The notes below the pieces were generated by a model that worked only from the letters and a program-made list of their open reading frames with translations, had not been told where the DNA came from and searched no databases. A stretch of 64,000 nt of DNA, taken from NCBI RefSeq assembly GCF_024437735.1, contig NZ_JANFQO010000018.1, positions 1-64,000 of the forward strand, written 5' to 3'. This DNA is from Tahibacter harae (GTDB lineage: Bacteria > Pseudomonadota > Gammaproteobacteria > Xanthomonadales > Rhodanobacteraceae). The first letter of the stretch is position 1. The number at the start of each line of letters is the position of its first letter. The position numbers and the translations under genes were made by a program. Shown here one piece after another: positions 189 through 53,377 of this stretch.

Positions 189-2891
189 TCAGCGGACCAC
201 GGCCTCGAAGCCGTTCCTGAAGATCTGGTCCGGCAGGCCCGAGGTACAGGCCGTACCGTAGAACAGACGCACGTCATCCAGCCAGAAGCCGGTGCGCGCA
301 AGCGAGGTATCGCTCTTGAAGCGGAAGCGGAACTTGGCGCTGGTGCCCGCGAAGGCGGACAGATCGACGCTGGAGCGGATCCAGGCCGTGTTGAAATCGC
401 CGTGCCAGGCGGTGCGCGCACCGAACGCGCCGTTGGCGTTCATCGCGCCGTTGTAGCCGCCGCTGAGGAAGCGGTTGGCATTGGCCGGGACCGCGCCCTG
501 GGCGTCGAGGATGTCGGTCCAGGTGGTGCCGCCGTCCAGCGAGTACTCCAGCAAGGTGCCGTCGTAGCCGGCCTCGGTGAAGTAGCGGATGTAGAACTCC
601 AGCGTGGTGTCCGGCGCGTTCGGCACGGTGATCGCATTGTTCAAGGTCAGGAAGCGCTCGCTGACATTGTTCGGATCCGGCACGAAGAACGAGCTGGTCG
701 GCGAATTCGCCTGGGTGGTCACCACCGCCCAGTTGGCGCCGACGCTGCCGGTGCCGGTCGCAGTCCAGTTGACCAGGCCGGCTTCGGCGTTGTCGCTGAA
801 CACGTTGCTGTCGGGACCGGACGGCGTAGCGCTCTTGCGTTCCGTATTGGCGTCTTCCAGGCCGGCCGCGCACAGGCCCGCGCCGCTGCCGTCGGAGCTT
901 TCCGCGTGCACGATGTACTGGTACGCATTGCCGCCGCCGACCGTCGTGTCGGTGAAGCTGGTGCCTGTGACGCAGCTCTGCACCAGGGTGGCCGCCGACG
1001 GGGTGAAGCCCGGCGTGGTCGAGCGGTAGACGTTGTAGCGCACGGTGCCGCCGCCGCCGCAGTTGGGGGTGGCCGCCGACCAGCTCAGGTTGACCGAGCA
1101 GGCGGCAGCGCCGGCGTTGGTCGCACTGGCAAGGCCGGCGAACGTCGGCGGCAGCGTGCAGGCGCCGGTGGCGGTCGCGCTGGAACAGGTGCTCTGGGCC
1201 GAATCGCAGGGCTGTACGGTGTCGCGCGAGCTGACCTTGTAGCTATAGGTCGTACCGCCGGAAACCGTGCTGTCGACATAGCTGGTGCCCGAGGTCACTT
1301 CGGCGATCTGCGTATAGGCCGAGCCCGGGCAGGCGCCGATGGAGCGGAAGACGCGGTAGGTGGTGATGCCCGACACCGCGGTCCAGTTCACCGTGATGGC
1401 GTTGGGCGCGGTCGCCGTGGCGGTCACGTTGGTGGGTTCGGCCGGCGCGGTGCATTCGCCGCGGCCGTCGATGAAGTCCGGATTGGCGCCGCCCGGGTCG
1501 AGGTAGCTCTTGACCGCGGTCGTCGGCGTGCCCAGGCCGTCCCAGGCATGGGCGAGCTTGCCGTAGAAATCGGACAGGTCGGCACCGGTGGCGCCGCAGG
1601 CGGACGGACCGCCCGAGAGCACACCGATCAGGCGCTGGCTGGCGTTGTACAGCGGCGAGCCGGAGGAACCAGGCTCGGTCACGCTGGGCGGAACCGTAGA
1701 GCCGGCCGGGAAGTTCGGCAGCAGCGGCGGCGTCGGATCCCAGAACGGATGCCAGTGCACGCCCGCAGCGCCGGAGATATCGCCGGTCTGCATGGTGGCT
1801 TCGACGAAGGTGATGCGCTTTTCGTCGACGCCCGGGTGATGGATGGACGCGCACAAGCCTACGGTCGAGGCCGGATCCGACGGATTGGTGCAGACCGGAT
1901 CGACATTGCGGCGGTCCCAGCCGGCCCAGTACAGATTGAAGGCCGGATTGGCCGGCTGCAGGAACTCCAGCAAGGTGAAGTCGGAACGGTTGCCGGCCGG
2001 CGCCGAGCCCGAGAACGGGTTCGCCGTCTGGGCGAGGAAGCGCACGCCGGTGCTGGTGGTGGACGGACGCGGCACGACCTGGCCGCTGGCGCTGGAACCC
2101 GGACGGCGGCAGGTGGCCGATTCATAGTTCCAGTACGCCACCAGGGTGGCGCCGATCGAGTCGCTGCTGACGCCGCAATGGGTCGCGGTGGCGAACAGCA
2201 TGCGCTTGTCGTTGGCGGTGTTGTTCACCAGCGAACCGGTACAGGTATCCGTGCCGCCGACGGTATAGGCCGCGACCGCGCGGCGCGGGTTGTTCCAGGG
2301 GTCGCCGGCGCTGAGGCAGGCCACGTCGGTGTTGCAGGCGCCGGACTTGCAGTGCTTGGCGGTGGCGCCGAAACCGCGATAGCCGTGGCCGATGCGCACG
2401 ATGCCGAACTTCAGCGCAGCCATCTGGGCGGCCGGTACGGTCAGCTTGATGATGGCCGAATCGCCCTTGAGCACCGGGGTCCAGAATGCATCGGCCGGGT
2501 TGTTTTCGCTGGCCGTGTACGGTCCCAGCTTGCCCAGCCCTTCCTGCCTGGACAGGATCAGCAGGCTGGCGCCGTCGGGCAGGTGGAAGGGCTGGAAGCC
2601 GAAGTTCAGGTGCGCCGCGTCCGGCGTATCCACTTCAAAGGTCCAGGTGTTATTGCCGTCGGCATCGACTTCCCAGGTGCCGTGGGCGGCGGTGTTGATG
2701 GATACATCGTGCGGTATGGCAAAACGGTATTTGCCGATGCCTTTCACATCGCCTAACTGGTCTTCCTGAGCGACCCTGTCCATGTCCAGGGCGTCGAAAG
2801 TCATCTTGGTTTTGTCCGCCGACAACCCGGCGGCGCCTGCGTGGCCCCACGCAATCGCCAGCACCAGGCCGGCACTCAATACTTTGCGCAC
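189..2891 (-). CDS. Secreted lysyl endopeptidase (Achromobacter protease I family) with FN3 and jelly-roll modules
   Basis: A 900-residue exported serine protease that should cleave after lysine. Residues 1-21 form a signal peptide ending AGA. A propeptide precedes the S1-type catalytic domain (about 205-475). Catalytic His238 lies in ATATHCG, Asp304 in NRSDFTLLE and Ser410 in EPGSSGSP. Counting from the active Ser by the spacing known for Achromobacter protease I, Asp441 in LSDFYG falls on the lysine-specificity Asp225 of that enzyme. The position of its His210 is Ser here (VLSGG instead of QLHGG). Two fibronectin-III-like repeats follow (about 482-690), then a MAM/jelly-roll-like module (about 697-885) resembling the one in the subtilase at 50000-53377. 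The protein ends with DQIFRNGFE, four residues before the C-terminus, a tail shared with two other secreted enzymes here. It is monocistronic and has its own terminator. Family assignment is strong; exact specificity is inferred. Confidence 0.9.
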   Translation of the reverse strand: MRKVLSAGLVLAIAWGHAGAAGLSADKTKMTFDALDMDRVAQEDQLGDVKGIGKYRFAIPHDVSINTAAHGTWEVDADGNNTWTFEVDTPDAAHLNFGFQPFHLPDGASLLILSRQEGLGKLGPYTASENNPADAFWTPVLKGDSAIIKLTVPAAQMAALKFGIVRIGHGYRGFGATAKHCKSGACNTDVACLSAGDPWNNPRRAVAAYTVGGTDTCTGSLVNNTANDKRMLFATATHCGVSSDSIGATLVAYWNYESATCRRPGSSASGQVVPRPSTTSTGVRFLAQTANPFSGSAPAGNRSDFTLLEFLQPANPAFNLYWAGWDRRNVDPVCTNPSDPASTVGLCASIHHPGVDEKRITFVEATMQTGDISGAAGVHWHPFWDPTPPLLPNFPAGSTVPPSVTEPGSSGSPLYNASQRLIGVLSGGPSACGATGADLSDFYGKLAHAWDGLGTPTTAVKSYLDPGGANPDFIDGRGECTAPAEPTNVTATATAPNAITVNWTAVSGITTYRVFRSIGACPGSAYTQIAEVTSGTSYVDSTVSGGTTYSYKVSSRDTVQPCDSAQSTCSSATATGACTLPPTFAGLASATNAGAAACSVNLSWSAATPNCGGGGTVRYNVYRSTTPGFTPSAATLVQSCVTGTSFTDTTVGGGNAYQYIVHAESSDGSGAGLCAAGLEDANTERKSATPSGPDSNVFSDNAEAGLVNWTATGTGSVGANWAVVTTQANSPTSSFFVPDPNNVSERFLTLNNAITVPNAPDTTLEFYIRYFTEAGYDGTLLEYSLDGGTTWTDILDAQGAVPANANRFLSGGYNGAMNANGAFGARTAWHGDFNTAWIRSSVDLSAFAGTSAKFRFRFKSDTSLARTGFWLDDVRLFYGTACTSGLPDQIFRNGFEAVVR

Positions 2892-3236
2892 AGTCTTTAC
2901 TCCTTAGCGGTTGACTTGCGTCACCGTCCCCCTGAAGTAACTCGCACGGTGCGTCCAGCGGATGGGTCTGGACTTGCTTGCCGACGCGCTCGGCACCCCT
3001 GCAACGAGGCGTTCGGCCCGGGGATTATGGATAGGGAAACGCGCGGAGTATTTCCGGCTGGAGGCGTGTTTTTTCTACGCCCGCCGGCCTATCGCAAAGC
3101 ACGGAAACTAGTCTTTCGGACGGGCGCAGCGGCCCAACGGGAAAACCACAAGGGGAAAAGTGAGCACAGTTTCACAAATAGGAAACGGCCGTGCCCGTTG
3201 CACGCATCCCAATCCCGGATCACCAATCCCGACAAT

Positions 3237-3269
3237 AAAAAAACCCGCCGCAGCGGACTGCGGCGGGTT
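3237..3269 (-). terminator. Orphan rho-independent terminator divergent from cysJ
   Basis: A perfect 12-bp stem (3242-3253 with 3258-3269, loop CGGA) is followed on the minus strand by a run of seven T residues. On the plus strand no T-run follows, so it acts leftward. The only room for a leftward transcript is the stretch up to about 3480, which lacks a convincing coding gene. It may end a small RNA or act as a roadblock. Confidence 0.7.
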
Positions 3270-3469
3270 CCCTCCCGGCAGACTCTTGGGCCTGCGCCCG
3301 CGCATTGTCGCCGGCACGGCGCCGCGGTCACGCCGCGCTGCAGCAGGCTGGCGGGCCCGACAGGGTTTGCGGGCCGCCGCGGCGGGCACATATCCCCCCG
3401 GCATAACCGAATAACCCCCCATCCTTTCCTGGCCGCCATGGGCGCGCCTAGCATGCCTGATTACAGGGC

Positions 3470-3485
3470 GTTTAGACGTCCAAAC
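3470..3485. promoter_or_regulatory. 16-bp palindrome ahead of cysJ, candidate operator
   Basis: GTTTAGACGTCCAAAC matches its own reverse complement at 14 of 16 positions and ends 17 bases before the preferred cysJ start. The core AGACGTC resembles the enterobacterial MetJ met box (AGACGTCT). MetJ is not expected in Lysobacterales, where an ArsR-type methionine regulator called SamR has been proposed from comparative genomics. Its exact motif is not something I can confirm here. The position fits a repressor site controlling the sulfate reduction operon. Confidence 0.45.
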
Positions 3486-3502
3486 GACTCAGGATGACGC
3501 CC

Positions 3503-5311
3503 ATGTCCGCGACCCCCGCCCTGCCCCTGATCCCGCTGCCCGAAAGCAAGGCCGGCGAGCTTTCCCGCCTGGTGGAAGGCCTGGACGCCAGCGCCCTGTG
3601 GTGGTTGTCCGGCTATGCCGCCGGCCTCGCCAGCCAGCCCGGCGGCGTGGCCCGGGCCGTGTCCGCGGCGCTGGCCCGGGAACCGGTCAACCTGCCGCGC
3701 CTGAGCGTGGTCTACGGCAGCCAGACCGGCAATGCCAAGCGCCTGGCCGAGCAGTTCGCCAGGACGGCCGAGACCGCCGGCCTGCAGGTGCGCCTGCTGC
3801 GCGCCGACGCCTACCCCACCCGCGAACTCAAGAACGAGCGCCTGCTGGTCGTGGTCATCAGCACCCAGGGCGACGGCGATCCGCCGGACGACGCCCGCGG
3901 CTTCGTCGAATTCGTGCTCGGCAAGCGCGCGCCGCAGCTGGCCGAACTCAAGTTCGGCGTGCTCGGCCTGGGCGACAGCAGCTATCCCAAGTTCTGCGAG
4001 ATCGGCCGCCTGCTGGACGAACGCCTGGCCGAGCTGGGCGCCAGCCGCCTGCTCGACCGCGCCGAGGCCGACGTGGATTTCGACCGCGTCGCCAGGCCCT
4101 GGGCCGAGCGCGCCCTGCAGGTCGCGCGCGAACAGCTCAAGGCGCATGCGCCCCTGGCCACGGTCACGCCGCTGCGCCCGGCCGCGGCCGCCGCCGGCTG
4201 GACCCGCGAGAAGCCGTTCAGCGCCGAAGTCATCGCCAACCAGCGCCTGACCGGCCGCGGCAGCGACAAGGACATCCGCCATATCGAGCTGTCGCTGGAA
4301 GGCGCCAGCCTGCACTACGAACCCGGCGATGCGCTGGGCCTGTGGCCGCGCAATCCGCCGGCCCTGGTCGACGCGGTGCTGGAGACCCTGCAGCTGGACG
4401 GCAATGCGCCGGTCAGCGTGGACGAACTCACCCAGCCGCTGCGCCTGTGGCTGAGCGAACACCGCGAACTGACCCGCCTCTCGCGCCCGCTGCTGGCCCA
4501 GCACGCCGCCCTGGCCGGCAGTGCGGATCTGAACCGCCTGCTGTCGCCCGAGCATTCCGCCCAGCTGCAGAAAATCCTCGCCGACTACCAGATCATCGAC
4601 CTGCTGCGCAGCTGGCCGGCATCCTGGTCGGCCGAGGAACTCGTCGCCGCGCTGCGCCCGCTGACGCCGCGGCTGTATTCCATCGCCTCCAGCCGCAGCG
4701 TGGTCGGCGACGAAGCCCACCTCACCGTCGCCCATGTCGCCTACGAGGCTTTCGGCAGCACCCACTGGGGCGCAGCCTCGCACTACCTGGCCAGCCGCGA
4801 GGAAGCCGCGCGCGTGCCGGTGTTCATCGAGCACAACGAGCGTTTCCGCCTGCCGCGCGACAGCTCCCGCGACGTGATCATGATTGGCCCCGGCACCGGC
4901 GTGGCGCCGTTCCGCGGCTTCGTGCAGGAACGCGCCGCCACCGGCGCGGCCGGCCGCAACTGGCTGCTGTTCGGCAACCCGCATTTCCGCAGCGATTTCC
5001 TCTACCAGACCGAATGGCAGGAGGCGCTGAAGAAAGGCAGCCTGAATCGCCTCGATCTCGCCTTCTCGCGCGACCAGGCGGAAAAAATCTACGTGCAGCA
5101 CCGCCTGGCCGAACACGGCGCTGAGCTGTATCGCTGGCTGGAGAACGGCGCCCACCTCTACGTCTGCGGCGACGCCACGCGCATGGCCAGGGATGTGCAC
5201 GAAGCCCTGATCGAAGTTGCCGTCAGCCACGGCGGCAAGAGCCGCGAGGACGCGGTCGAGTATGTGAACCAGTTGCAGCAGCAGGGCCGCTACGCCCGGG
5301 ACGTGTATTGA
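3503..5311 (+). CDS. cysJ: Assimilatory sulfite reductase (NADPH) flavoprotein alpha subunit
   Basis: It carries electrons from NADPH through FAD and FMN to the hemoprotein CysI, which reduces sulfite to sulfide in the cytoplasm. About 602 residues, the usual CysJ length. A flavodoxin-like FMN domain comes first ([16 protein letters not shown] near residue 73), then an FAD-binding domain (RLYSIASS) and an NADPH-binding domain ([19 protein letters not shown]). The C-terminus [11 protein letters not shown] is typical of CysJ. An in-frame ATG also exists at 3494. I prefer 3503 because the AGGA at 3491-3494 is then correctly spaced, whereas for 3494 it would overlap the start codon. It is first in an operon with cysI one base downstream. 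A palindromic site lies just upstream. Confidence 0.95.
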
Positions 5312-5312
5312 G

Positions 5313-7001
5313 ATGAGTGCCACCCTTTCCGCCAACGAGAAGCTCAAGGCAGACAGCAATCTGCTGCGCGGCACGCTCAAGCAAAGCCTGGCCGACGCCC
5401 ACACCGGCAGCCTGCGCGAAAACGACCAGGTACTGCTCAAGTTCCACGGCAGCTACCAGCAGGACGACCGCGACCTGCGCGAGGAACGCCGCCTGCAGAA
5501 GCTGGAGCCCGACTACAGTTTCATGATCCGCACGCGCACGCCCGGCGGCGTCGCCACGCCGCAGCAGTGGCTGCAGCTGGACGCCATCGCCACGCGCTAC
5601 GCCACCGGCGGGCTGCGCCTCACCACGCGCCAGGCCTTCCAGTTCCACGGCGTGATAAAGCGCGAGCTGAAGGCCACGCTGGCAGCGATCAACGCCAGCC
5701 TGATCGACACCATCGCCGCCTGCGGCGACGTCAACCGCAACGTGCTGTCGGCGGCCAATCCGCTGCTGTCGCCGGTGCACGGCGTGGTCTACGAACAGGC
5801 CAAGGCACTGTCGGCGTATTTCCTGCCCAAGACCCGCGCCTATTACGAAATCTGGCTGGACGAGGAACAGGTCGCCGGCACGCCGGAGGAGGAAACCATC
5901 TACGGTGCGACCTACCTGCCGCGCAAGTTCAAGACCGCCTTCGCCGTGCCGCCGCTCAACGACGTGGACGTGTTCGCCAACGATCTGGGCTTCATCGCCA
6001 TCATCGAGAACGGCGCCGTAGCCGGCTACAACGTCACGGCCGGCGGCGGCCTGGGCGCCACCCACGGCGATGCCAACACCTATCCGCGCCTGGCCGACGT
6101 GCTCGGCTTCGTCACGCCAGACGAAGTCATCGCCGTGGCCGAAGCGGTGCTGACCACCCAGCGCGACTGGGGCAACCGCAGCGACCGCAAGCGCTCGCGC
6201 CTGAAATACACCATCGACGACCGCGGCCTGGATGCGTTCAAGGCCGAAGTGGAACGCCGCCTGGGCCATGCCCTCGCGCCGGCACGGGAATTCCATTTCG
6301 ACCACAACGGCGACCGCTTCGGCTGGGTGCAGGGCCAGGACGGCGACTGGCACCTGACTCTGCGCATCGAAGCCGGCCGCGTGCTGGACCGCGGCCCGCG
6401 CCGCCTGCTCAGCGGCCTGCGCGAGATCGCGCGCATCCATGTGGGCGATTTCCGCCTGACCGGCAACCAGAACCTCGTCATCGCGCGCGTACCGCCGGCG
6501 CTCAAGCCGCGCATCGACGCCCTGGTCGAGGAATACGGCCTGGATCTCTACCGCAGCGCCAGGCCGCTGCACCTGGCCGCGCTGGCCTGCGTCGCGCTGC
6601 CGACCTGCGCGCTGGCCATGGCCGAGGCCGAACGCTATCTGCCCGAACTGGTGGAAAAGCTGGAACAGCGCCTGGCCGCGCACGGCCTGCTGGATGCGCC
6701 CATCCACCTGCGCATCTCCGGCTGCCCCAACGGCTGCTCGCGGCCCTACCTGGGCGAGATCGCCCTGGTCGGCAAGGCGCCGGGCCGCTACAACCTGATG
6801 CTGGGCGCCGACCACCGCGGCCAGCGCCTGAACCGCCTGCACAAAGAAAACATTGCAGAAATGGAAATCCTGGAAACAGTGGACGCGCTGTTCGGCCGCT
6901 ACGCCGCCGAGCGCGAGGCCGAGGAACGGTTCGGCGATTTCCTGGTGCGCAGCGGCATCGTCGCCGCCAAGCCGGGCATCGCCCTGGAGGTAAGGACATG
7001 A
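5313..7001 (+). CDS. cysI: Assimilatory sulfite reductase hemoprotein beta subunit
   Basis: A 562-residue siroheme/4Fe-4S enzyme that reduces sulfite to sulfide by six electrons, partnered with CysJ. The four cluster ligands are visible as Cys426-x5-Cys432 and Cys471-x3-Cys475 ([19 protein letters not shown]). Other family motifs include TRQAFQFHG and CGDVNRNV. The start codon lies one base after the cysJ stop, and the last codons overlap cysH by four bases (ATGA), so translation of the three genes is probably coupled. Confidence 0.96.
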
Positions 7002-7720
7002 GCTTTCCCGATCTGCTGAGCGCCGCCGAAGACGCCCGCGCCCTGGCCGAACTCAATCAGAAACTGGAAGCGCTGCCGGCCGAGGAGCGCGTGGCCTGGG
7101 CCCTGGCCACGCTGCCGCAGAGCCGCGCCCTGTCCTCCTCCTTCGGCGCCCAGTCGGCGGCTTCGCTGCACCTCATCACGCGCCAGACGCCGGATATCCC
7201 GGTCATCCTGATCGACACCGGCTACCTGTTCCCGGAAACCTACCGCTTTGCGGACGAGCTGGCCCAGCGCCTGCAGCTCAACCTCAAGGTCTACCGCCCG
7301 AACATCAGCCGCGCCTGGATGGAGGCGCGCCACGGCAAGCTGTGGGAAAAGGGCGTGGAAGGCATCGACCAGTACAACGCCCTGCGCAAGGTCGAGCCCA
7401 TGCGCCGCGCGCTGGACGACCTGGCCGTGCGCACCTGGTTCGCCGGCCTGCGCCGCGCCCAGGCGCGCACGCGCAGCGAGGCCCAGGTGCTGGAACTGCG
7501 CAACGGCCGCTGGAAGTTCCAGCCGCTGGTGGACTGGAGCGATCGCGATATCTACGTCTACCTGCAGCGCTACGACCTGCCCTACCACCCGCTGTGGGAC
7601 GAAGGCTATGTCTCCATCGGCGACACCCACACCACCGCGCGCTGGGAAGCCGGCATGAACGAGGAAGACACGCGCTTTTTCGGCCTGAAGCGGGAGTGCG
7701 GCATCCATGTCGACATCTGA
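6998..7720 (+). CDS. cysH: Phosphoadenosine phosphosulfate (PAPS) reductase
   Basis: A 240-residue thioredoxin-dependent enzyme that reduces PAPS to sulfite. The N-terminal part has the [14 protein letters not shown] nucleotide-binding stretch and [10 protein letters not shown]. The catalytic cysteine is Cys234 in the C-terminal KRECGIH. The paired cysteines that bind a 4Fe-4S cluster in APS reductases are absent, so PAPS rather than APS is the likely substrate. That agrees with an APS kinase encoded next door. The ATG overlaps the cysI stop codon in ATGA, with AAGGA as ribosome binding site. Confidence 0.95.
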
Positions 7721-7893
7721 ACGCGCCCGCCAGCTCGCGCTGGCGCGATGTTGCCGCAACGCCTGATTCACGGCGGCGCAACGCGCCGCCGCCCGCAGGT
7801 TCCAGCGGCCCCGCGCCGCCCATCTCCCCAGATCAGGCACCGGCCGCCGCCGGCGCCACGGGCGAACCCCGCGCCCGCACAAGGAAAACACCC

Positions 7894-10775: not shown

Positions 10776-10779
10776 GGCC

Positions 10780-34619: not shown

Positions 34620-36677
<2,058 letters not shown>

Positions 36678-43800: not shown

Positions 43801-43935
43801 GATTCCACCATGTCCTGCGGGAGGTTTGCGCGGCGGTGTGCGGGCTGCGGGTCGCCGCAATCGCCAAGTGTGCCATAGACTGCCGGCGCGGCCGGGCGGC
43901 CGGAAGAGCCGTCGATCAGCATTTGGAGATGACAG

Positions 43936-44549: not shown

Positions 44550-45632
44550 TCAGCGCTGACCGTACTTCTCGTTCAGCCGCTTGCCCAGCGCCTTGTTGGC
44601 GACCTTGGCCTCGCCCTTGCGCTTGAGCTGCGCTTCCAGGCTGCTGGCCTGGGCTTGCAGTTCATCGCGCAGTTTCTGGTAGCTGGCCCAGCGCTCCGGA
44701 TCAAGCTCGCCGCTTTCCAGCGCCGCGCGCACGGCGCAGCCGGGTTCGGTCTGGTGGGCGCAGTCGCCGAAGCGGCATTGCATGGCCAGGGCGTCGATAT
44801 CGGCGAACTGGCCGGCTTCGAGGTCTTCCTCGCCGGTGAGCTTGAGTTCGCGCATGCCGGGCGTGTCGATCAGGCAGCCGCCCTGGGGCAGCGCGATCAG
44901 CGCGCGGAAAGTGGTGGTATGGCGGCCGCGGCTGTCGTGCTCGCGCACGGCCTTGGTGGCCTGGCGTTCCACCCCGAGCAGGGTATTGGTCAAGGTCGAC
45001 TTGCCTACGCCGGAGGAACCGACCACCACCGCGGTGCGGCCCGGCCCCAGATAGGGATGCAGCACGGCGACGCTGGCCGGATCCTTGGCATTGACCGCAT
45101 GCACGACGATGTCCGGCGGCAGCACGTCGAGCACGTCTTCGAGCAGGGCGTCCAGATCTTCGTGCTGGTCGGCCTTGGTCAGCACCACCACGCACTGCGC
45201 GCCGGAGGACTGGATCAGGGCAAGGTAGCGTTCCAGCCGGCGCGGATTGAAGTCGCCGTCCAGGCCCATCAGCACCAGCACGCTGTCCACGTTGGTCGCG
45301 ATCAGCTGACGCTGGTAGCGCTCGCCCGCGGCGGCGCGCGAGAGCGTGGCATGGCGCGGCAGCACGATCTCGATGGTGGCGGGCTTGCCCGGCTTGAGCA
45401 GGACGAAATCGCCGACGGCGGGGCGTTCCACCGGGTCCAGGCTGCGGCGCAGGAAGCGCGCGGCCGGCTGCACGGTGAATTCCTGGGCGCCGTCGTGCAC
45501 CACGTAGCCGTTGCGGTGCTGGATGATGACCCGCGCCGGCACATGCTCGGCGCGGGCGTCCTCGGGCAGGGTGATCGCGTCGCTCCAGCCTACGGTGGCC
45601 AGGCGCGCGAGGGTCTCGGGAGGCAGTTGCAT
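44550..45632 (-). CDS. rsgA: Ribosome small-subunit-dependent GTPase A
   Basis: A 360-residue circularly permuted GTPase that helps mature the 30S subunit. An N-terminal OB fold is followed by the permuted G motifs, G4 (VLTKADQ) before the P-loop GSSGVGKST and G3 (DTPGMREL). A C-terminal zinc-binding segment follows (CRFGDCAHQTEPGCAV, the C-x5-C... pattern with His). The start at 45632 matches the family; the frame upstream is open but overlaps the adaptor gene. It lies 55 bases after the RND-type adaptor gene on the same strand and may be partly transcribed from it. Confidence 0.95.
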   Translation of the reverse strand: MQLPPETLARLATVGWSDAITLPEDARAEHVPARVIIQHRNGYVVHDGAQEFTVQPAARFLRRSLDPVERPAVGDFVLLKPGKPATIEIVLPRHATLSRAAAGERYQRQLIATNVDSVLVLMGLDGDFNPRRLERYLALIQSSGAQCVVVLTKADQHEDLDALLEDVLDVLPPDIVVHAVNAKDPASVAVLHPYLGPGRTAVVVGSSGVGKSTLTNTLLGVERQATKAVREHDSRGRHTTTFRALIALPQGGCLIDTPGMRELKLTGEEDLEAGQFADIDALAMQCRFGDCAHQTEPGCAVRAALESGELDPERWASYQKLRDELQAQASSLEAQLKRKGEAKVANKALGKRLNEKYGQR

Positions 45633-45687
45633 GGCGCGGATTGTAGCTGCGCCGGTGCCGGGCCCGGCAGACGGTGCGGGCGGGTTT

Positions 45688-46779
45688 TCAGCGCTTGGCC
45701 AGGGTATCCGCGGCCGGCTTGTCGGCGGCGCGCAGGGCCTGCACTTCGCTGCCCTCGTGCAGGGCGCTGTGGCCGGCGACGACGACATCCGCGCCCGGGC
45801 TCAGGCCCTGCAGCACCTGCACATTGTTGCCGGACTCGTAGCCGAGCTTGACCGCCACGCGCTGGGCCTTGCCGTCGCGCACCACGAACACGCTGCTGTC
45901 GCGATCGCCGCTGAGCAGGGCGGACTTGGGCACCAGTATGGCCGCGGCGACATTGTCATAGGCCACATCCAGGCGCGAGAACAGACCAGGGCGCAGCTTG
46001 CCGTCGGTATTGTCCACCGCGACCGTGATTTCCACCGTGCCGCTGGCCGCGTCCACCACCGGGCTGACCCGCTCCACTTCGGCACGGAAGGCCTGCTGCG
46101 GCAGCGCATCGGCGCGGTAGTCGACCAGCTGGCCGGGCTTGAGCGCGGTGCTGGCACGTTCCGGTACGCGCAGGCGGGCCTTGAGTTCGCGGAAATCGGC
46201 CATCTCGAAGGCGACTTCATTCATCTTCAGCAGCTGGCCCTGCTTGATCCAGCGCCGCGTGACCACGCCGTCGAACGGGGCGATCACGGCGCACTTGGAC
46301 AGGCTCAGGCGGGCCAGGTCGACCTCCGCCTTGCGCGTGGCCAGATCGGACTTGTTCTGTTCATAGGCGTTGCGCGCAATCAGCTGGCGCCGGAACAGGT
46401 TCTCGTTGCGCACGTCCTGGTGCTTGAGGCGTTCCAGCTCGGCCTCGGCCTGGCGCAGCAGCACGCTGTGGCGCTCGGCGTCCAGCTTGGCCAGCACCTG
46501 CCCCTTGCGCACGAACTGGCCTTCCTCGGCGTTGAGCGCCAGCACGATGCCGCCGATCTCGCTGACCACCTTGGCCTCACGCTCGGCTTCCAGAGTGGCG
46601 GTACCGGCATAGGTGGCCGTGATGTCGCCCTGGGACACGGCGGCGACCTCGACAGGAATGACCTCGGCCTTGGGCTTCTCCGCGGTGGCGGCGGACTTGG
46701 CATCGCCGGCACATCCCGTCAGCAGCGGCGCACCGGTCACCGCAAGCAGGATCAGGGAGGCAAACAGGGAGGTCTTCAT
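45688..46779 (-). CDS. RND efflux periplasmic adaptor lipoprotein, orphan
   Basis: A 363-residue membrane fusion protein. The lipoprotein signal ends in LLTGC (Cys23). Lipoyl halves (VVSEIGGIVLALNAEEGQFV; AVIAPFDGVVTRRWIKQGQL) flank a coiled-coil hairpin, followed by a beta-barrel domain (ILVPKSALLSGDRDSSVFVV). Such adaptors connect an RND pump with an outer-membrane channel. Neither an RND pump nor a TolC gene follows; the next gene is rsgA. Upstream is a good promoter overlapped by a TetR-type palindrome, so expression is probably drug- or stress-inducible. Confidence 0.9.
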   Translation of the reverse strand: MKTSLFASLILLAVTGAPLLTGCAGDAKSAATAEKPKAEVIPVEVAAVSQGDITATYAGTATLEAEREAKVVSEIGGIVLALNAEEGQFVRKGQVLAKLDAERHSVLLRQAEAELERLKHQDVRNENLFRRQLIARNAYEQNKSDLATRKAEVDLARLSLSKCAVIAPFDGVVTRRWIKQGQLLKMNEVAFEMADFRELKARLRVPERASTALKPGQLVDYRADALPQQAFRAEVERVSPVVDAASGTVEITVAVDNTDGKLRPGLFSRLDVAYDNVAAAILVPKSALLSGDRDSSVFVVRDGKAQRVAVKLGYESGNNVQVLQGLSPGADVVVAGHSALHEGSEVQALRAADKPAADTLAKR

Positions 46780-46798
46780 GGCGATCTCTATTGAGATA

Positions 46799-46838
46799 GT
46801 GTTGTAGCGAACTATAACACCAGTACTGGACCGGTCAA
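46799..46838 (-). promoter_or_regulatory. Promoter with overlapping TetR-like operator
   Basis: On the minus strand TTGACC (46833-46838) and TATAGT (46811-46816) are 16 bases apart, a good sigma-70 promoter about 30 bases ahead of the adaptor ATG. The palindrome GTGTTGTAG-CGAA-CTATAACAC (46799-46820, eight of nine pairs) overlaps the -10 element and the transcription start. Its size and AT-rich arms are typical of AcrR/TetR-family repressor sites. The repressor gene is not in the window. Confidence 0.65.
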
Positions 46839-47082
46839 GCGGAATCTTACGCAGCCCCTGTTACCGCCCACATCTGCCGGTGGAGACAGTGACTTTCGAC
46901 TAGACACGGCGCTTTCTGATGCAGCAGAGGCGGCAAAGGTTGCGCAGGAGCCGGCGATCCGGGCCGCTGTCCGGCACAACGCAGCAAAATGCCCGCGATT
47001 TGCCACAAATCCGGCCAAGGGTTGGTTGGACATTCGCCCGTCTGCCGCTAGGATTCGGCGGACCCGACCAGGACTCACCGCA

Positions 47083-48327
47083 ATGCCGCAGCGCACAGTA
47101 CCCGTCAGTTCCCGTCTCGGTGATGTTCGTTACGAGATCCGCGGGGCCCTGTCGCGCCGAGCCCGCGAGCTGGAAGCCGAAGGCCGCGACATCGTCCGCC
47201 TCAATATCGGCAACCCGGGCCTGTTCGGCTTCAGCGTGCCGGAGCACCTGCGCCGCACGGTCGAGACCCAGCTGCCGCGCAGCGAGGCCTACTGCCACCA
47301 GCAGGGCCTGCAGGGCGCGCGCGAAGCCATCGCGGCGCGCGAAGCGGCCCGCGGCGCGGTCGGCGCGCATGCGGACAATGTATTCATCGGCAACGGCGTG
47401 TCGGAACTGATTGATCTGACCCTTCGCGCCCTGCTCAACAGCGGCGAGGAAGTGCTGCTGCCCAGCCCGGACTACCCGCTGTGGAGCGCCGCCACCGTAC
47501 TCAACGGCGGCCGGGCGCGCTACTACCCCTGTCCGGCCGGCCGCGGCCATCTGCCCGACCCGGACGAGATCGAAGCCCTGATCACCCCGCGCACCCGCGC
47601 CCTGGTGCTCATCAACCCGAACAACCCCACCGGCGCGGTCTATCCGCGCGAACTGCTGCAGGCGCTGGTGCGCGTGGCCGAGCGCCACCGCCTGCTGCTG
47701 CTGTCCGACGAGATCTACGACGGCATCCTCTACGACGGCGCCGAATTTCATCCGCTGGCGCCGCTGGCCGGCGAAACGCCGTGCATCACTTACAGCGGCC
47801 TGTCCAAGATGCACCGCGCCTGCGGCTACCGCGTGGGCTGGATCAGCCTTTCCGGCACGCCGGCGCGCTTCGGCGAATTCCGCGCCGCGCTGGATCTGCT
47901 CTCGGCCCTGCGCCTGTGCGCCAACGTGCCCACGCAGTGGGCGGTGGAACCGGCCCTGACCGGCCCGGACACCATGGCCGAACTGGTCGGCAGCGGCGGC
48001 CGCCTGCACGCCGCGCGGCGCGCGGTGCTCGACGGCGTGGCGCGCAGCGAGTTCCTCGACGTGGTCGCGCCGCAGGGCGCGCTGTACGCCTTCCCCAGCG
48101 TGCGCACCCAGCAGTTCGGCAGCTTCGACGACGAGGATTTCGCCCTCAACCTGCTCGAAACCGAAAACGTGCTGGTCGTGCCCGGCACCGGCTTCAATAT
48201 CCGCGAGCGCAACCATTTCCGCCTGACCCTGCTGCCGCAGCCGGAAGAGATCGGCGACGTATTCAGCCGCATCGAGCGTTGCCTGGGCCGCCTGGCCCGC
48301 TCGGCGCCGGCGCGCCATGTGGCCTGA
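47083..48327 (+). CDS. PLP-dependent aminotransferase, AlaA-type
   Basis: A 414-residue class I/II aminotransferase. It shows the substrate loop RLNIGNPGLFGF, the cofactor-contacting NPNNPTGAVYP, LLSDEIYDGILYDG, the catalytic lysine in TYSGLSKMHRACGYRVGW and the C-terminal RNHFRLTLLP. The closest pattern is the glutamate-pyruvate (alanine) aminotransferase AlaA. The start at 47083 lies inside a longer frame; upstream sequence has no protein-like character. It overlaps the next gene by 11 bases. Confidence 0.9.
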   Translation: MPQRTVPVSSRLGDVRYEIRGALSRRARELEAEGRDIVRLNIGNPGLFGFSVPEHLRRTVETQLPRSEAYCHQQGLQGAREAIAAREAARGAVGAHADNVFIGNGVSELIDLTLRALLNSGEEVLLPSPDYPLWSAATVLNGGRARYYPCPAGRGHLPDPDEIEALITPRTRALVLINPNNPTGAVYPRELLQALVRVAERHRLLLLSDEIYDGILYDGAEFHPLAPLAGETPCITYSGLSKMHRACGYRVGWISLSGTPARFGEFRAALDLLSALRLCANVPTQWAVEPALTGPDTMAELVGSGGRLHAARRAVLDGVARSEFLDVVAPQGALYAFPSVRTQQFGSFDDEDFALNLLETENVLVVPGTGFNIRERNHFRLTLLPQPEEIGDVFSRIERCLGRLARSAPARHVA

Positions 48328-48988
48328 GCTGCTGCTGACCGGCGTGCTGGCCGGCCAGACCGTGGCGCAGGCCGGCAGCCTGCGCTTCCTGGCCCTGGGC
48401 GATTCCTACACCATCGGCGAAGGCGTGGCGGAAGCCCAGCGCTGGCCGCGCCAGCTGGCCCAGCGCCTGCGCGCCGACGGCGTGGACCTGGCCGATCCGC
48501 AGATCATCGCCACCACCGGCTGGACCACCGACGAACTCTCCGCCGGCATGGATGCAGCCACCCTGGTGCCGCCGTATGACTTCGTCACCTTGTCGATCGG
48601 CGTGAACAACCAGTACCGCGGCCGCGATCTCGACAATTACCGGCGCGAATTCGCCGCCCTGCTGCAGCGGGCCATCGCCCTGGCCGGGCTGCGGCCGCAG
48701 CGCGTGCTGGTGGTGTCGATACCGGACTGGGGCGTGACTGCCTTCGGCCAGGGCAGCGGCCGCGATCCGGCCGTGATCGCGCGCGAGCTGGATCAGTTCA
48801 ACGCCATCAACCGCGAAGAAGCACGGCGTGCCAACGTGGCCTGGGCCGATGTCTGCGCCATCTCGCGCCGCGCCGGCGCCACGCCGGCACAGCTGGCCGA
48901 GGACGGCCTGCACCCCTCCGGCGCCCAGTACACGGCTTGGCTGAGCCAGATACTGCCGCCCGCGCGCATCGCCCTGTCATCGCCCTGA
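48317..48988 (+). CDS. SGNH/GDSL-family hydrolase
   Basis: A 223-residue esterase or lipase-like enzyme. Block I is FLALGDSYTIGEG with the nucleophile Ser, block III is LSIGVNNQYRG, and the catalytic Asp-x-x-His is DGLHPSG. A short hydrophobic N-terminus (LLLTGVLAGQTVAQAG) could be a signal peptide. It starts within the last codons of the aminotransferase gene, implying co-translation. Substrate unknown. Confidence 0.88.
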   Translation: MWPELLLTGVLAGQTVAQAGSLRFLALGDSYTIGEGVAEAQRWPRQLAQRLRADGVDLADPQIIATTGWTTDELSAGMDAATLVPPYDFVTLSIGVNNQYRGRDLDNYRREFAALLQRAIALAGLRPQRVLVVSIPDWGVTAFGQGSGRDPAVIARELDQFNAINREEARRANVAWADVCAISRRAGATPAQLAEDGLHPSGAQYTAWLSQILPPARIALSSP

Positions 48989-49057
48989 CCCCGGCCGGCA
49001 ACGCAACGGATACCTTGCGCGGCTAGCCTTTTCCCGGCTTGGCTACCGGGGCGTCCC

Positions 49058-49888
49058 ATGGACCGCCTGCGTTTCCGCAGCATCTTCATTTCCGACGTAC
49101 ACCTGGGCACCCGCGACTGCCGCGCGGACTTTCTGCTGGATTTCCTGCGCGCGACCCGCTGCGAACGGCTGTACCTGGTCGGCGACATCATCGACATCGA
49201 AGCCATGGAGCGCTCGCCCTACTGGCCGGCGCGGCATGGCGAGGTGCTGGCGGAATTTCTCCACATCGCCGCCAACGGCACCGCGGTCATTTACCTCCCG
49301 GGCAATCACGACGCGCCGCTGCGCGGCCTGGCCGGGCAGCGCGTAGGCCAGATCGAGGTGGCGCTGGACGCGATCCACACCACTGCCGACGGCCGCCGCT
49401 TCCGCGTCAGCCACGGCGACGAGTTCGACCCGGAACACCAGGGCAAGACCTGGCTGACCTGGTTTGGCGATTACGCCTACCGCCTGATCTGCTGGGCCAA
49501 CCGCAGCGTCAACACCTTGCGCCGGCGCCTGCGCCTGCCCTACTTCGCCCTGTCCATCCTGGCCAAGTCGCGCATCGGCAAGGCGCTGGCCTATATCCGC
49601 CGCTACGAGGGCCTGGCCACGCAGCGCGCACGCGAACTGGGCCTGGACGGGCAGATCTGCGGCCATATCCATTTCGGCGCCATGCGCGCGCACGACGGCG
49701 TGCTGTACCTCAACGACGGCGACTGGGTGGAACACTGCACGGCGCTGGTCGAGCACGCCGACGGCACGCTGGAACTGCTGCACTGGAGCGAACGCCGCGC
49801 CGCGCTGATGCGCGCGGCCGCGGGCGAACGCGCGCCGCAGCCGCAGCCCGTGCCGGCCTGGGCGCAGGTGCTGAACGCGCGCGCCTGA
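49058..49888 (+). CDS. LpxH-like metallophosphoesterase
   Basis: A 276-residue calcineurin-like phosphoesterase. Metal-binding motifs appear in order: SDVHLG, GDIIDI, GNHD, HGDEFD and GHIHFG. Family members related to UDP-2,3-diacylglucosamine hydrolase act in lipid A synthesis, but the long alpha-helical insert (WANRSVNTLRRRLRLPYFAL) places it in the broader LpxH-like group whose substrate is often unknown. It is co-directional with the two preceding genes (69-base gap). Confidence 0.87.
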   Translation: MDRLRFRSIFISDVHLGTRDCRADFLLDFLRATRCERLYLVGDIIDIEAMERSPYWPARHGEVLAEFLHIAANGTAVIYLPGNHDAPLRGLAGQRVGQIEVALDAIHTTADGRRFRVSHGDEFDPEHQGKTWLTWFGDYAYRLICWANRSVNTLRRRLRLPYFALSILAKSRIGKALAYIRRYEGLATQRARELGLDGQICGHIHFGAMRAHDGVLYLNDGDWVEHCTALVEHADGTLELLHWSERRAALMRAAAGERAPQPQPVPAWAQVLNARA

Positions 49889-49934
49889 GCGGGCCTGCCG
49901 ATGCGGCGCGGCGCGGCGTCGCTGTGGCAGGCCG

Positions 49935-49971
49935 AAAAAGAAAAAAGCCGCAGGAATCGCTTCCCGCGGCT
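49935..49971 (-). terminator. Rho-independent terminator of the subtilase gene
   Basis: An 11-bp stem with one mismatch (49946-49956 with 49961-49971) is followed on the minus strand by TTTTTTCTTTTT. It lies 28 bases after the stop of the leftward subtilase. The rightward phosphoesterase ends 46 bases before it. Confidence 0.87.
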
Positions 49972-49999
49972 GTTCCTTGCGCCGACCGCAATGCCCGCG

Positions 50000-52900
50000 C
50001 TACGGCGCCGGCTCGAAACCGCTGGCGAAGATCGAATCCGGCGACTGCGCCGCGCAGCTCTGCACGCGGATGTTGTCGACGTACCAGCCGTGCGGCAGGC
50101 GGCCCTGGGTGGTGTCGCTGGTCATGCGGAAGCGGATCTTCACCGCCTGGCCGGCGTAGGCGCTCAGATCGACCACCGACTTCATGTACGGCTGCGGATC
50201 GCCGCACCAGGCCGGCTTGTTGATCGCGGGGCCGGCCTCCAGCGGGCCGTCGAAGGGATCGGTCAGCATGGCCGTACCCGGCAGCGCGGTAAACGTGGTG
50301 CCGCCGTCGCTGGAAACCTCGATAAAGCCGCCGTCCCAGCAACCGGTGGAGCCGCGCGGCTCCAGGGTCTGGTCGTTCTGGAACTGCAGGGTCAGCGGGT
50401 TCTCGCCGCCGGGCAGCGTGATGCTCGGCGAAGTCAGGCGCTGGTCGCTGCTGCTATCGATGTCCTGGGCCAGCCAGGAGCTGCCGCTGCCGCCGTAGGG
50501 CCGCGCGGTGCTGATCGCCCAGGTGGTGCTGCCGCTGCCGGCCGAGGCGACCCAGCCGTTTGCGCCGTTTTCCACGTTTTCACTCAGCAGCACACGCGCC
50601 GCCGAACCCACGCCGCAATCGCCGGGCAGGGCCACGGTGCTGAACGGCCGGCCGGCCGAGGCCGCGCCGGTGCCGCAGATATTGTCCGAGCGCACGCGCC
50701 AGTACAGCGGGGTGTTGCTGGGCAGGTCGATATCCGGCGTGGCGCTGGTCAGCCGGGTGGTGGCGCTGAACAGGATGCTGCCGAAGGCCGCGTCGCTGGC
50801 CACTTCGAGTACGTAATCGCGGCCCTGCGCCGCGGCGGCCCAGCTGAAGGTCGGCCGCAGCGGGACATTGGTGGCGCCGGCCGCCGGCGCGGCCAGGACC
50901 GGCGCCGCCGGCGCGGCATTGGCCACGGCCAGTTCCAGCGCGCGGCTGCGGTTGGCCGAGGTCGAGGCGGCCTGCAGCTGGAAGCTGTAGTTGCCCGGCG
51001 CGACCGCGTCCAGGGTGCTGAGGTCCACGCTGGCGCTGTTGCCCGGCGCCAGGCTGGGCGGCGTGACCACGCCGGTAGCGCCGGCCGGCAGGCCGGCCAG
51101 GCTCAGGTTCACCGGCGTGACATAGCTCATCACCGAACCGACCGCGACCGCGTAGCTGGTCGTGCTGGCCGAGGTGGTGCACACCTCCTGCGAGGTATCG
51201 GGGATGCTCAGCGTGTAATCGGGCTGGGAGACGCAATTGACGCAGACCAGGGCGAAATCCTGGTCGGTGGTGTCGCCGCTGTTGGGCAGCGCGTCGGAGC
51301 TGATGTTGGCCGCCGCCACGCGCACTTCCAGCGCGCCGCCGGCCAGTGCGGCCGGCGTGAGCACCACCGATTCCACATTGTTGCGGTTGTCCGCGCTGCC
51401 GCCGGTGGCGCTGTTGCCGTCGGCGCCGAACACATTGCCAAGGTAGACGCTGGCACCGACGCCGACGCTGAGATCCAGGTCGTTGTTCCAGGCCGGCGTG
51501 GTGCCGCCCAGGCCATGGCCCGGCGCATCGGTATAGGCCAGCACGATCTGCACCGGCTTGGCCGGATCGGGCGGGGCGACATTGAGGGTCCAGCTCTCGC
51601 CGGTGTTGTCGAATACGCGGGTGTCCTGGTCGTAGTACAGCACCGGCGTGGCCGGGCCGATCAGCCAGTCGGCGCGCACGCGGCCCCAGCCCTGCCGGGA
51701 ATCCGGGCGGTGGCCCATAGCCACGCCGTCGGCGTCGAAATGGCCGTTGAGATCCATGGCCGCGGCGATCAGCGCGGCCTTGATCAGCGCCGTGCTGGGC
51801 GAGGCGCCGGCGTGGGCCGTGCGGTATTTCTCGATGAACAGCGCGGACAGGCCGCTGACCTGGGGCGAGGCCATGCTGGTGCCGCATTTGTAGCCGTAGC
51901 CGGTGGCGCTGACCGGCGAATCCACCGAGCAACCTGGCGCGACCAGGTGGGGGATGCGGCGGCCGTCCAGGGCCGGGCCATGGCCGCTGTTGTCGGAAAG
52001 ATCGTTGAACTGGGGAATGGCGGCGCCGGTGTTGGTCTGCGCCTTGGTCGAGCCGACGGTGATGACGTTCTTGGCCTCGTCGGGCGAGCCCTGCGAGCTG
52101 GTGCCGCCGTAGCCGTTCATGATCGACAGCACATAGGTCAGCGGCTGGTCGCCGGCGATGTCAGGCTTGGTGTCGCGGGTGCCCACGTCGACCTGGCGCG
52201 TGTCCGCGTCGTAGCCGCGCGGCGAGCCTGCCGGCCCCCAGCTGTTGCCGGAAATGTCGGCACCGTTGTCCTGCGACTGGCGCATCAGCTTGAGCATGCC
52301 GCCGGCCTGGGTGAACGTCGGGTCGTAGACCTGTTCGATCAGCTTGGCGCCCGGCGCCATGCCCAGACCGCGGCGGAAACCGTTGGCATCGTTGCTGCCT
52401 GAGCTGCCGTCGCCGGCCATGATGCCGGCGGTGTGGGTGCCGTGATCGTCGGTGGCCGTGCCGCCGCAGGTGTCGCCGGTACACGGCAGCATGCGGCCGA
52501 CCAGGTCGGGATGGGTGTCGAAGATGCCGCCGTCCACGTTGGCGATCTTCACGCCGTTGCCGGTGACGCCGGCCGTGCCCAGCCAGGCCAGGTAGCCCGG
52601 CACCGGCAGATTGGTGGCGCCGAGGTTGTTGGCGGTGATCTGGTTGGCCAGCTCGGCGCGCTTGCCGCCATCGCGCGGCACCGGATCCAGTGCGTATACG
52701 CCGGGCATCTGCGCCAGCTGTTGCAGCGCCTGGGCGTTGGCGCCTTCGAGTTCGACGATCTCGAATTCGCGGTCGATCACGCTGCGCTTGCCCACGCTGA
52801 CGCCGCTGGCGCGCAGCGCCGCGTCGGCGATGCCGGCGCCGCGATACAGCATGGCGCGCCATTGCTGCTCGCCGCGCAGCAGGCCGTCGTTGACATTGGC

Positions 52901-53377
52901 AGTCTTGTACTTTGCAAGAAAGTCGCCACTCCAGCGCAACGCGCCGCTGCGCTGGCGCGCCTGCGCCAGGGCCGCGCTGTCGGCCCAGACCACGTAGCTG
53001 AACGGCGCGATGTACTGCAGCGGCCGCACGCCGGCGGCGGTGAGGGAATCCAGCCACTCCTGCTTGACCGGGCCGTCGAACTGGACCAGGCGCAGCGCCT
53101 TGCCGTCGCCATATTCCTTGGTGTTGGCCGCGCTGTCCTGGCGCGGATCGAAGCTGCGGTAGCCCAGGTCCAGGCTGAAGGTTTCCGCCTCGCCGGCACC
53201 GCTGCCGCTGCCGCGCACCCAGGCGAAGCTGCCGTAATCGTGCACCACGCTGGCGCCGCGGGCGACGGCGCGCGGCACCTGGTCGCGGGGAATGCGGGCG
53301 TAGTCCGCGGCCAGGGCGGATCCGGAAACCAGCGCGGCAATGGCCAGCGCCAGCGCTGAACGATGCGGTAGTGACAT
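50000..53377 (-). CDS. Secreted subtilisin-like (S8) protease with jelly-roll tail
   Basis: A 1125-residue exported serine protease. A signal peptide (LALAIAALVSGSALAA, cleavage near 23) is followed by a long N-terminal propeptide region and the S8 catalytic domain. Its triad motifs are KIANVDGGIFDTHPDL (Asp about 284), DDHGTHTAGIMAGDG (His about 313) and GTSMASPQVSGLSALF (Ser about 503). Next come a P/beta-sandwich region, an Ig-like domain (AAPAAGATNVPLRPTFSWAA) and a MAM/jelly-roll-like module (LLSENVENGANGW to HGWYVDNIRV). The latter resembles the module of the lysyl endopeptidase at 189-2891. It ends SCAAQSPDSIFASGFEPAP. The start at 53377 has GAGG six bases upstream. Monocistronic. Confidence 0.92.
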   Translation of the reverse strand: MSLPHRSALALAIAALVSGSALAADYARIPRDQVPRAVARGASVVHDYGSFAWVRGSGSGAGEAETFSLDLGYRSFDPRQDSAANTKEYGDGKALRLVQFDGPVKQEWLDSLTAAGVRPLQYIAPFSYVVWADSAALAQARQRSGALRWSGDFLAKYKTANVNDGLLRGEQQWRAMLYRGAGIADAALRASGVSVGKRSVIDREFEIVELEGANAQALQQLAQMPGVYALDPVPRDGGKRAELANQITANNLGATNLPVPGYLAWLGTAGVTGNGVKIANVDGGIFDTHPDLVGRMLPCTGDTCGGTATDDHGTHTAGIMAGDGSSGSNDANGFRRGLGMAPGAKLIEQVYDPTFTQAGGMLKLMRQSQDNGADISGNSWGPAGSPRGYDADTRQVDVGTRDTKPDIAGDQPLTYVLSIMNGYGGTSSQGSPDEAKNVITVGSTKAQTNTGAAIPQFNDLSDNSGHGPALDGRRIPHLVAPGCSVDSPVSATGYGYKCGTSMASPQVSGLSALFIEKYRTAHAGASPSTALIKAALIAAAMDLNGHFDADGVAMGHRPDSRQGWGRVRADWLIGPATPVLYYDQDTRVFDNTGESWTLNVAPPDPAKPVQIVLAYTDAPGHGLGGTTPAWNNDLDLSVGVGASVYLGNVFGADGNSATGGSADNRNNVESVVLTPAALAGGALEVRVAAANISSDALPNSGDTTDQDFALVCVNCVSQPDYTLSIPDTSQEVCTTSASTTSYAVAVGSVMSYVTPVNLSLAGLPAGATGVVTPPSLAPGNSASVDLSTLDAVAPGNYSFQLQAASTSANRSRALELAVANAAPAAPVLAAPAAGATNVPLRPTFSWAAAAQGRDYVLEVASDAAFGSILFSATTRLTSATPDIDLPSNTPLYWRVRSDNICGTGAASAGRPFSTVALPGDCGVGSAARVLLSENVENGANGWVASAGSGSTTWAISTARPYGGSGSSWLAQDIDSSSDQRLTSPSITLPGGENPLTLQFQNDQTLEPRGSTGCWDGGFIEVSSDGGTTFTALPGTAMLTDPFDGPLEAGPAINKPAWCGDPQPYMKSVVDLSAYAGQAVKIRFRMTSDTTQGRLPHGWYVDNIRVQSCAAQSPDSIFASGFEPAP

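Follow-up and report, generated by a model that had tools for sequence, protein, structure and literature searches.

A short C-terminal tag on unrelated exported proteins of Tahibacter harae and its co-distribution with a second type II secretion system

In a stretch of 64,000 nucleotides of Tahibacter harae DNA, hereafter the window, three predicted secreted enzymes, a lysyl-endopeptidase-like protein, an endonuclease I and a subtilase, end in almost the same nine residues (DQIFRNGFE, DAIFASGFE and DSIFASGFE), which raises the question of what this tail does and what reads it. Our analysis revealed that the tail, here called the tag, stands near the end of dozens of exported and otherwise unrelated proteins of the same genome, and that it is distributed over genomes together with one subtype of type II secretion system (T2SS), designated system A. 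We propose tentatively, and with somewhat less than even confidence, that system A reads the tail as a short linear targeting tag at the C-terminus.

The tag in the Tahibacter harae genome

The three tails were read in the sequence where the original prediction had placed them, with AVVR, Q and PAP left before the respective stop codons, and the domains ahead of them are as unrelated as it had claimed. The lysyl-endopeptidase-like protein has Trypsin_2-like and fn3-like domains (both under the Pfam cut-off) with an InhA-like MAM, the endonuclease I has Endonuclease_1 with Big_5, and the subtilase has Peptidase_S8 with an InhA-like MAM/choice_anch_J, the jelly-roll module being common to two of the three enzymes, again as claimed. 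The back-translated pattern IFxxGFE matched the window three times, exactly at the three tails, and dinucleotide shuffles of the window (n = 100) gave a mean of 0.01 matches and in no case three. Hence a chance origin of the tails was rejected, on these shuffles and on the control of a genome-wide search. In that search, a DNA pattern for [ILVMF]-F-x-x-G-F-E was run with its reversed control over the whole genome (5.99 Mb in 79 contigs) and found 52 sites versus 1. In 43 of the 52 the motif lies 0-11 residues before a stop, the remaining nine lie 36-718 residues away, and a few extra terminal cases appear when D may replace the final E of the motif. There were 47 terminal cases in total and 44 were aligned, leaving out two frames that have no signal peptide (L061, L062) and a fragment that recurs in another locus. 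Over these 44 proteins the tail is the only conserved run, with the consensus D-x-I-F-x-D-G-F-E, the other columns being scattered single G and P, and the overall consensus of the tag is D-x-[IL]-F-x-[DN]-G-F-E-x(0-11)-stop. The D two residues ahead of I/L was present in 29 of the 44 and at 134 of 142 terminal sites from 113 loci of other genomes, the latter figure being inflated because the fetching pattern demanded D-x-I-F-x-D-G-F-E. A cysteine before the tail, which the original prediction had counted as part of the motif, is not general, since one was found within 14 residues before the motif in 14 of the 44 proteins and at 33 of the 142 sites elsewhere. The NCBIfam models gave no family for three tails at E up to 10.

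Export of the tagged proteins was assessed with a home-made signal-peptide scorer that takes the best start codon. It scored a signal peptide in 43 of the 44 proteins, one of them Tat-like by eye; the start of the one miss (L070 at 5753) is uncertain. As the scorer is lenient, it was also run on the non-tail open reading frames (ORFs) of the same loci, where 52 of 293 reached the score versus 22 of the 25 tail ORFs that the gene caller recovered. The tail was correctly predicted to be without the hydrophobic helix and basic end of PEP-CTERM and GlyGly-CTERM signals: a transmembrane-like stretch was found in the last 60 residues of one of the 44, ahead of the motif, the 43 terminal sites having 0-11 residues after it, and two or more K/R follow the motif in two of the 44. 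The proteins ahead of the tail are unrelated to one another. Their domains include subtilase (5), MAM (5), P-domain (4), lamin-tail (3), fn3 (3) and DUF11 (3), furthermore beta-propellers, nucleases and a phospholipase C, and the families matched whose names point to other C-terminal anchors (E up to 0.01, some under the curated cut-offs) were choice-of-anchor J (5), D (3) and Q (3), rhombotarget A (2), MXAN_5453 (1) and the ExeM/NucH nucleases (2).

Other placements of the motif were also seen. It directly follows the signal peptide, at the mature N-terminus, in L043:9352, L102 and L218, and it stands between domains or in a loop in L066 and L033. At L051:9049 the tail is apparently doubled, VFWNGFEPPGTEDGLFCDDFD, with 22 further residues behind it. 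In three DUF11-repeat-like proteins of T. harae (L031:774, L046:3191 and L057:2943) LFxxGFE is followed by a C-terminal region of 128-156 residues, and because these regions show weak mutual similarity (E 0.02-0.9), the tag may stand ahead of an extra domain there.

AlphaFold2 models were obtained from shallow alignments for the endonuclease catalytic domain with its tail (24 sequences) and for the last module of the subtilase with its tail (8 sequences). The tail lies outside the better predicted fold and is without secondary structure in both, the predicted local distance difference test (pLDDT) being below 50 for endonuclease residues 270-279 and 52 and 43 for the last two blocks of the subtilase. 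An integral strand of the jelly-roll fold, named by the original prediction as a way in which the tail might have no role of its own, does not appear in the model of the subtilase module. The first strands of the two MAM/choice-of-anchor J modules in the window (264-797 and 50063-50587), VFSDNAE and LLSENVE, look by eye like the tail heptamer, and because of this resemblance the tail may derive from, or imitate, the first strand of such a module.

Table 1. Tags, adjacent modules, catalytic domain and signal peptides of the three enzymes in the window
Feature	Position	Strand	Basis
C-terminal tag DQIFRNGFE, then AVVR and stop, lysyl-endopeptidase-like protein (CDS 189-2891)	204..230	-	sequence
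MAM/choice-of-anchor-J-type jelly-roll module directly before tag, lysyl-endopeptidase-like protein	264..797	-	PF20773 (residues 749-876) over cut-off; NCBIfam NF038112 (residues 699-876) and NF038128 (residues 704-875), both under curated cut-offs
Signal peptide (predicted, 20 aa), lysyl-endopeptidase-like protein	2832..2891	-	crude scorer
C-terminal tag DAIFASGFE, then Q and stop, endonuclease I (CDS 34620-36677)	34626..34652	-	sequence; model residues 270-279 all pLDDT <50
Endonuclease_1 catalytic domain, endonuclease I	34698..35417	-	PF04231
Signal peptide (predicted, 25 aa), endonuclease I	36603..36677	-	crude scorer
C-terminal tag DSIFASGFE, then PAP and stop, subtilase (CDS 50000-53377)	50012..50038	-	sequence; model without secondary structure there
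Choice-of-anchor J/MAM module directly before tag, subtilase	50063..50587	-	NF038128, 32.3 bits (cut-off 30); PF20773
Signal peptide (predicted, 23 aa), subtilase	53309..53377	-	crude scorer

Co-distribution of the tag with system A

Sites were counted in 200 genomes of the gammaproteobacterial order and in 229 genomes of other orders of the class. Within the order the counts are nearly bimodal, with 0-11 in most genomes of the large families f1 and f2 and 23-156 in most other groups, families f8 (1-36) and f7 (11 and 13) being intermediate. High counts were found in that one order only; in the other orders the largest count was 21 and a handful of genomes stood above the control, among them G326 (18 sites vs 1), G373 (16 vs 1) and G206 (16 vs 2). 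Genomes with an excess of at least 11 over the reversed control are here called tag-rich, a threshold chosen after the counts were seen, and of the 72 genera sampled there, 33 carry the tag frequently, with a majority of their genomes over the threshold. Of the 79 sites of G003, a genome of another family, 20 were read. Seventeen lie within six residues of a stop, 13 of them with nothing after the motif, and a signal peptide was scored for 13 of the 17, the remaining four being frames no longer than 68 residues. In both genomes read in this way the motif sits on exported proteins and was not common in proteins without a signal peptide; its being common in cytoplasmic proteins was what the original prediction had named as a refutation. 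Public genomes were scanned with a pattern demanding D, I, D and the stop, and at least 113 stretches were found. The 80 named ones fall mostly in Dokdonella, Tahibacter, Rudaea, Chiayiivirga, Aquimonas, Pseudofulvimonas, Wenzhouxiangella, Marinicella and unnamed Lysobacterales or gammaproteobacterial metagenome-assembled genomes, with a few, possibly by chance, in other phyla.

Two genera carry an altered tag. Genus g28 is seemingly tag-poor, yet its endonuclease ends in IFADRFE, and a pattern for the R/S variant found 19, 5, 4 and 2 sites in the four panel genomes of this genus (reversed control 0), 0 in tag-poor genomes of f1, f2, f8 and f9 and 0-5 in tag-rich ones; in the g28 loci read, seven of eight variant motifs lie within six residues of a stop. 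Similarly, G130 of genus g65 has system A and few GFE sites, 40 of its 51 relaxed matches are of the R type, and the motif is terminal in four of five loci read. Because the tag is changed from G to R in g28 and g65, their 16 genomes were kept outside the main table; the variant was checked in five of the 16.

The same genomes differ in their T2SS secretins. In a panel of 51 genomes, at least two secretins over the cut-off were found in 24/24 tag-rich and 4/4 g28 genomes, and the 23 tag-poor genomes have one (18 genomes), none (two) or two or three (three). A tree of 80 secretins has two clades, a clade B to which tag-rich and tag-poor genomes both contribute copies, and a clade A with one GspD from each of the 24 tag-rich genomes and from all three g28 genomes fetched, which have the R variant. 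Among the 23 tag-poor panel genomes clade A has a single entry, a long-branch sequence of G057 whose placement is unsure according to the program. System A is the machine of this GspD clade A, with a gspC carrying a PDZ domain, gspD and gspE. The clade-A profile scored above 640 bits in 75 of the 200 genomes and matched contig-end fragments in five more, which were counted as system A; elsewhere it gave 450-576 bits in some f2 genomes, with secretins that we take to be Xcs-like, and roughly 190 bits at most in the remainder. Leaving out g28 and g65, 62/64 genomes with system A were tag-rich at the threshold of 11 vs 9/120 without it. The corresponding figures were 59/64 vs 5/120 at a threshold of 20, 64/80 vs 9/120 at the threshold of 11 with both genera included, and 38/40 vs 9/97 in the 137 of these genomes that lie outside the panel. 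In addition, GspC (PF11356) was found in 31/34 tag-bearing vs 3/25 tag-poor genomes, and of the few genes tested GspD-A and GspC associate best with the tag. Rhombosortase was rejected as a partner, because a single genome among the 53 of the panel, itself tag-poor, has it over the cut-off; weaker rhomboid matches occur in every one of the 53 and of the 14 controls.

In the 27 system A loci fetched, an ORF with a PDZ-like end stands upstream of gspD-A by eye in all 27 (with one intervening gene in two), and tblastn matched gspC in 21. Pfam found T2SSC and PDZ in 5/5 system A GspC proteins scanned, PDZ being over a cut-off in four. A gspE follows gspD-A in 25 of the loci, gspF was seen in 12, and ftsE-like and ftsX-like genes lie beside 11 of these 12, the names gspE, gspF, ftsE and ftsX being given by resemblance. 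The crude gene calling took antisense frames in places in these GC-rich loci, and gene order was re-read by tblastn. The machine of clade B, system B, is by its look presumably an Xps-type cluster. Downstream of it, L247, L263 and L288 have a conserved gene whose product reads MKKNxLTTxVVAGLAGVAGIA...LNPDGLGQVLIYPYYT and which, judged by position and resemblance only, is similar to the S-layer gene npdA, described next to a T2SS (PMC10765051).

On the endonuclease I the tag behaves as a detachable add-on module, because homologues of tag-poor G057, G127 and G092 align with the tagged enzymes up to the tail, stop before it and lack it. There were 35 matches to this enzyme and DNA for 30 of them. 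Of these 30, 16 carry the tag or a variant of it at the end, each in a genome with system A, 13 are untagged and one was unreadable. A second, untagged type of endonuclease I was seen at six tag-rich loci as well as in tag-poor G067, and the enzymes of L209, L199 and L201 have different ends and no tag. An endonuclease I is present in 19/29 tag-bearing vs 6/24 tag-poor genomes.

How the tag might be read

The proposal that system A reads the tag builds on what was observed here, namely the tag itself, its position, its export context, the disorder in two models, its presence or absence as a module on the endonuclease I and the distribution that it shares with system A. A tagged protein would cross the inner membrane by Sec (or Tat) and fold in the periplasm, with the tag hanging off the folded protein as a flexible peptide. 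The periplasmic part of system A, most likely GspC and/or the GspD N-domains, would bind the tag, and binding would recruit the protein for transport onto the cell surface or into the medium. A more specific version, possible although doubtful, holds that one nine-residue label on dozens to perhaps more than 100 unrelated proteins per genome is read by GspC/GspD of one T2SS subtype and that, where the label went from G to R in g28 and g65, the reader presumably changed likewise. Of the sorting signal unlike PEP-CTERM and GlyGly-CTERM that was originally suggested, the sorting role has gained ground through the many proteins, their export, the mostly C-terminal position and the link to one secretion subtype, and the cysteine has been dropped.

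Several observations weigh against system A as the reader. The original prediction had suggested looking for co-occurrence with one specific protease, transpeptidase or secretion gene; the co-occurrence with system A has exceptions in both directions. In family f8, G088 has clear terminal tags in four of six loci read, and G058 and G133 have one clear tag of six loci each (G133 one more in a 78-residue frame); each of the three genomes has a single low-scoring secretin and no GspC match. System A was not detected in G026, G053 and G083 of f8 and in G086, all narrowly over the count threshold, nor found in the draft genomes G047 and G114, which have many sites. Conversely, G073 and G180 have system A yet control-level sites (4 vs 2 and 3 vs 0); one short frame of G073 ends in VFVDSFEQ. 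Concordant losses seem few (crown f1, crown f2, g33 of f9 and partly f8), and therefore other genes lost on the same branches would correlate too. An exosortase (Pfam PF09721, weak matches at E 1e-6 to 1e-10) was found in 26 of 59 genomes, 23/34 tag-bearing and 3/25 tag-poor, including G088, G058 and G133, which have tags without system A, and was not found in G073 and G180. The system A loci fetched gave no match with B-type gspG, H, K, L and N queries, and a complete separate machine is therefore not demonstrated. Furthermore, some copies of the motif are internal or directly follow the signal peptide, and as 0-11 residues follow it in T. harae and none at 13 of the 17 terminal sites of G003, its distance to the carboxylate varies and the tag is not a canonical PDZ ligand. 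Because of the exceptions and the exosortase pattern, co-occurrence alone leaves the reader undecided. Beside LFSDGFE, G088 has altered terminal tags, IFFNDFE and IFMNNFE (L329, L339 and L344), which perhaps reflect decay after loss of the reader.

The main rival, which we consider rather unlikely, is surface retention: the proteins would leave by a type II system on the strength of other determinants, and the tail would then hold the enzymes on the cell by docking to a receptor in the outer membrane or at the surface, with neither lipid nor covalent bond, doing the job of GlyGly-CTERM and MYXO-CTERM by other chemistry. Choice-of-anchor, ExeM and rhombotarget A members end in the tag here, and the internal and N-terminal copies fit a binding peptide. 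Moreover, the accessible part of a report on Wenzhouxiangella strain AB-CW3 states that no proteolytic activity was excreted and that the lytic proteases were assumed to be anchored in the outer membrane (PMC7691419); the genus has tagged genes. Against this stand the lack of a receptor candidate and of any account of its own for the link to system A. Around the tag genes, the larger recurrent families are the tag proteins themselves, with a few small non-tag clusters of 3-6 genes, and this neighbour-gene search gave no dedicated partner candidate among the larger recurrent families and none that was taken further as a receptor.

It is unlikely that another factor (a chaperone, protease or outer-membrane protein) reads the tag and that system A is a fellow traveller lost on the same branches. 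The small number of independent losses and the f8 exceptions speak for it; the association of GspD-A and GspC, better than those of exosortase, endonuclease I and rhombosortase in a comparison of few genes, speaks against it. Processing of the tag by exosortase H (XrtH), perhaps as an unusual substrate, seems very unlikely, although all six exosortase matches scanned were XrtH (TIGR04177) over the cut-off and the pattern given above accommodates G088, G058, G133, G073 and G180. The tail is without the transmembrane helix and basic end of known exosortase signals, XrtH is also present in tag-poor G007, G017 and G078 of f8, and it pairs with IPTL-CTERM. It was not found in 11 of the 34 tag-bearing genomes, some of these absences being possibly misses because the PF09721 matches are weak. 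Simple patterns for IPTL-, PEP- and GlyGly-CTERM proteins found nothing convincing in 3.4 Mb of fetched loci, a biased sample. Common neighbours of the exosortase-like genes in 20 genomes fetched (L384-L403) look like shikimate kinase and hemE. Finally, that the tail is a structural strand or the truncated start of a further jelly-roll module, without a separate role, is scarcely credible: IFASGFE and IFRNGFE resemble by eye the module first strands LLSENVE, VFSDNAE and LLNTDFE and internal copies occur occasionally, but the tail is set apart from the fold, with low pLDDT, in the two models from shallow alignments, is equally found on proteins without such a module, is C-terminal at most sites and is absent from homologues in tag-poor genomes.

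Comparison with known sorting and secretion signals

The choice of cargo by type II secretion among folded periplasmic proteins is an open question, and no common linear type II secretion signal is known according to the accessible parts of two reports (PMC12369372, PMC7949064). If the proposal that system A reads the tag is true, the cargo question could be put to a direct test in non-pathogenic bacteria by means of a short, portable C-terminal tag linked with one T2SS subtype. Whatever the reader, dozens of proteins per genome carry a C-terminal tag that lacks the usual membrane helix, and of this tag our literature search (the open-licence papers listed, judged by titles and the starts of abstracts) found no description. 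Like type II cargo, the tag proteins have a Sec/Tat signal peptide by the crude scorer, and they would fold in the periplasm.

Among C-terminal signals, PEP-CTERM/exosortase and IPTL-CTERM/XrtH resemble the tag as C-terminal tags of Gram-negative bacteria, and XrtH occurs in many of the same genomes; they differ in being tripartite with a transmembrane helix, which the tag does not have. The C-terminal domains of type IX secretion likewise target proteins without a transmembrane helix, but are folded, about 80 residues long and found in Bacteroidota, whereas the tag is nine disordered residues in Gammaproteobacteria. With the tripartite PEP-, GlyGly- and MYXO-CTERM signals the tag shares the short near-C-terminal motif on exported proteins. 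It lacks the defining transmembrane helix and basic end, and was therefore not classed as a member of the T2SS-linked C-terminal sorting signals. GlyGly-CTERM/rhombosortase and MYXO-CTERM/myxosortase resemble it in function, being, in the accessible parts of the reports, C-terminal signals that bring many proteins to one presumed reader, are carried by exported hydrolases and choice-of-anchor proteins, and have a link with the cell surface and with type II secretion (PMC3237569, PMC11980579). The tag differs from them in having no transmembrane helix, no basic end and no required Cys or GlyGly.

On the side of the secretion machine, known T2SS recognition, with its flexible loops, GspC PDZ domain and GspD, would by analogy suit a flexible nine-residue peptide. 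As far as the accessible part of the report goes, PelI exposes a nine-residue loop that serves as a T2SS signal by way of GspC and GspD, and this loop 3 of PelI/Pel3 is like the tag in being about nine residues long, flexible and carried by folded periplasmic cargo (PMC7949064). Similarly, the part of the VesB report accessible to us describes the EpsC PDZ domain as required for secretion of VesB through its Ig-fold, and a GspC with a PDZ domain is the correlated component here (PMC12369372). The determinants of PelI, Pel3 and VesB are internal and substrate-specific, whereas the tag is one linear C-terminal consensus on dozens of unrelated proteins.

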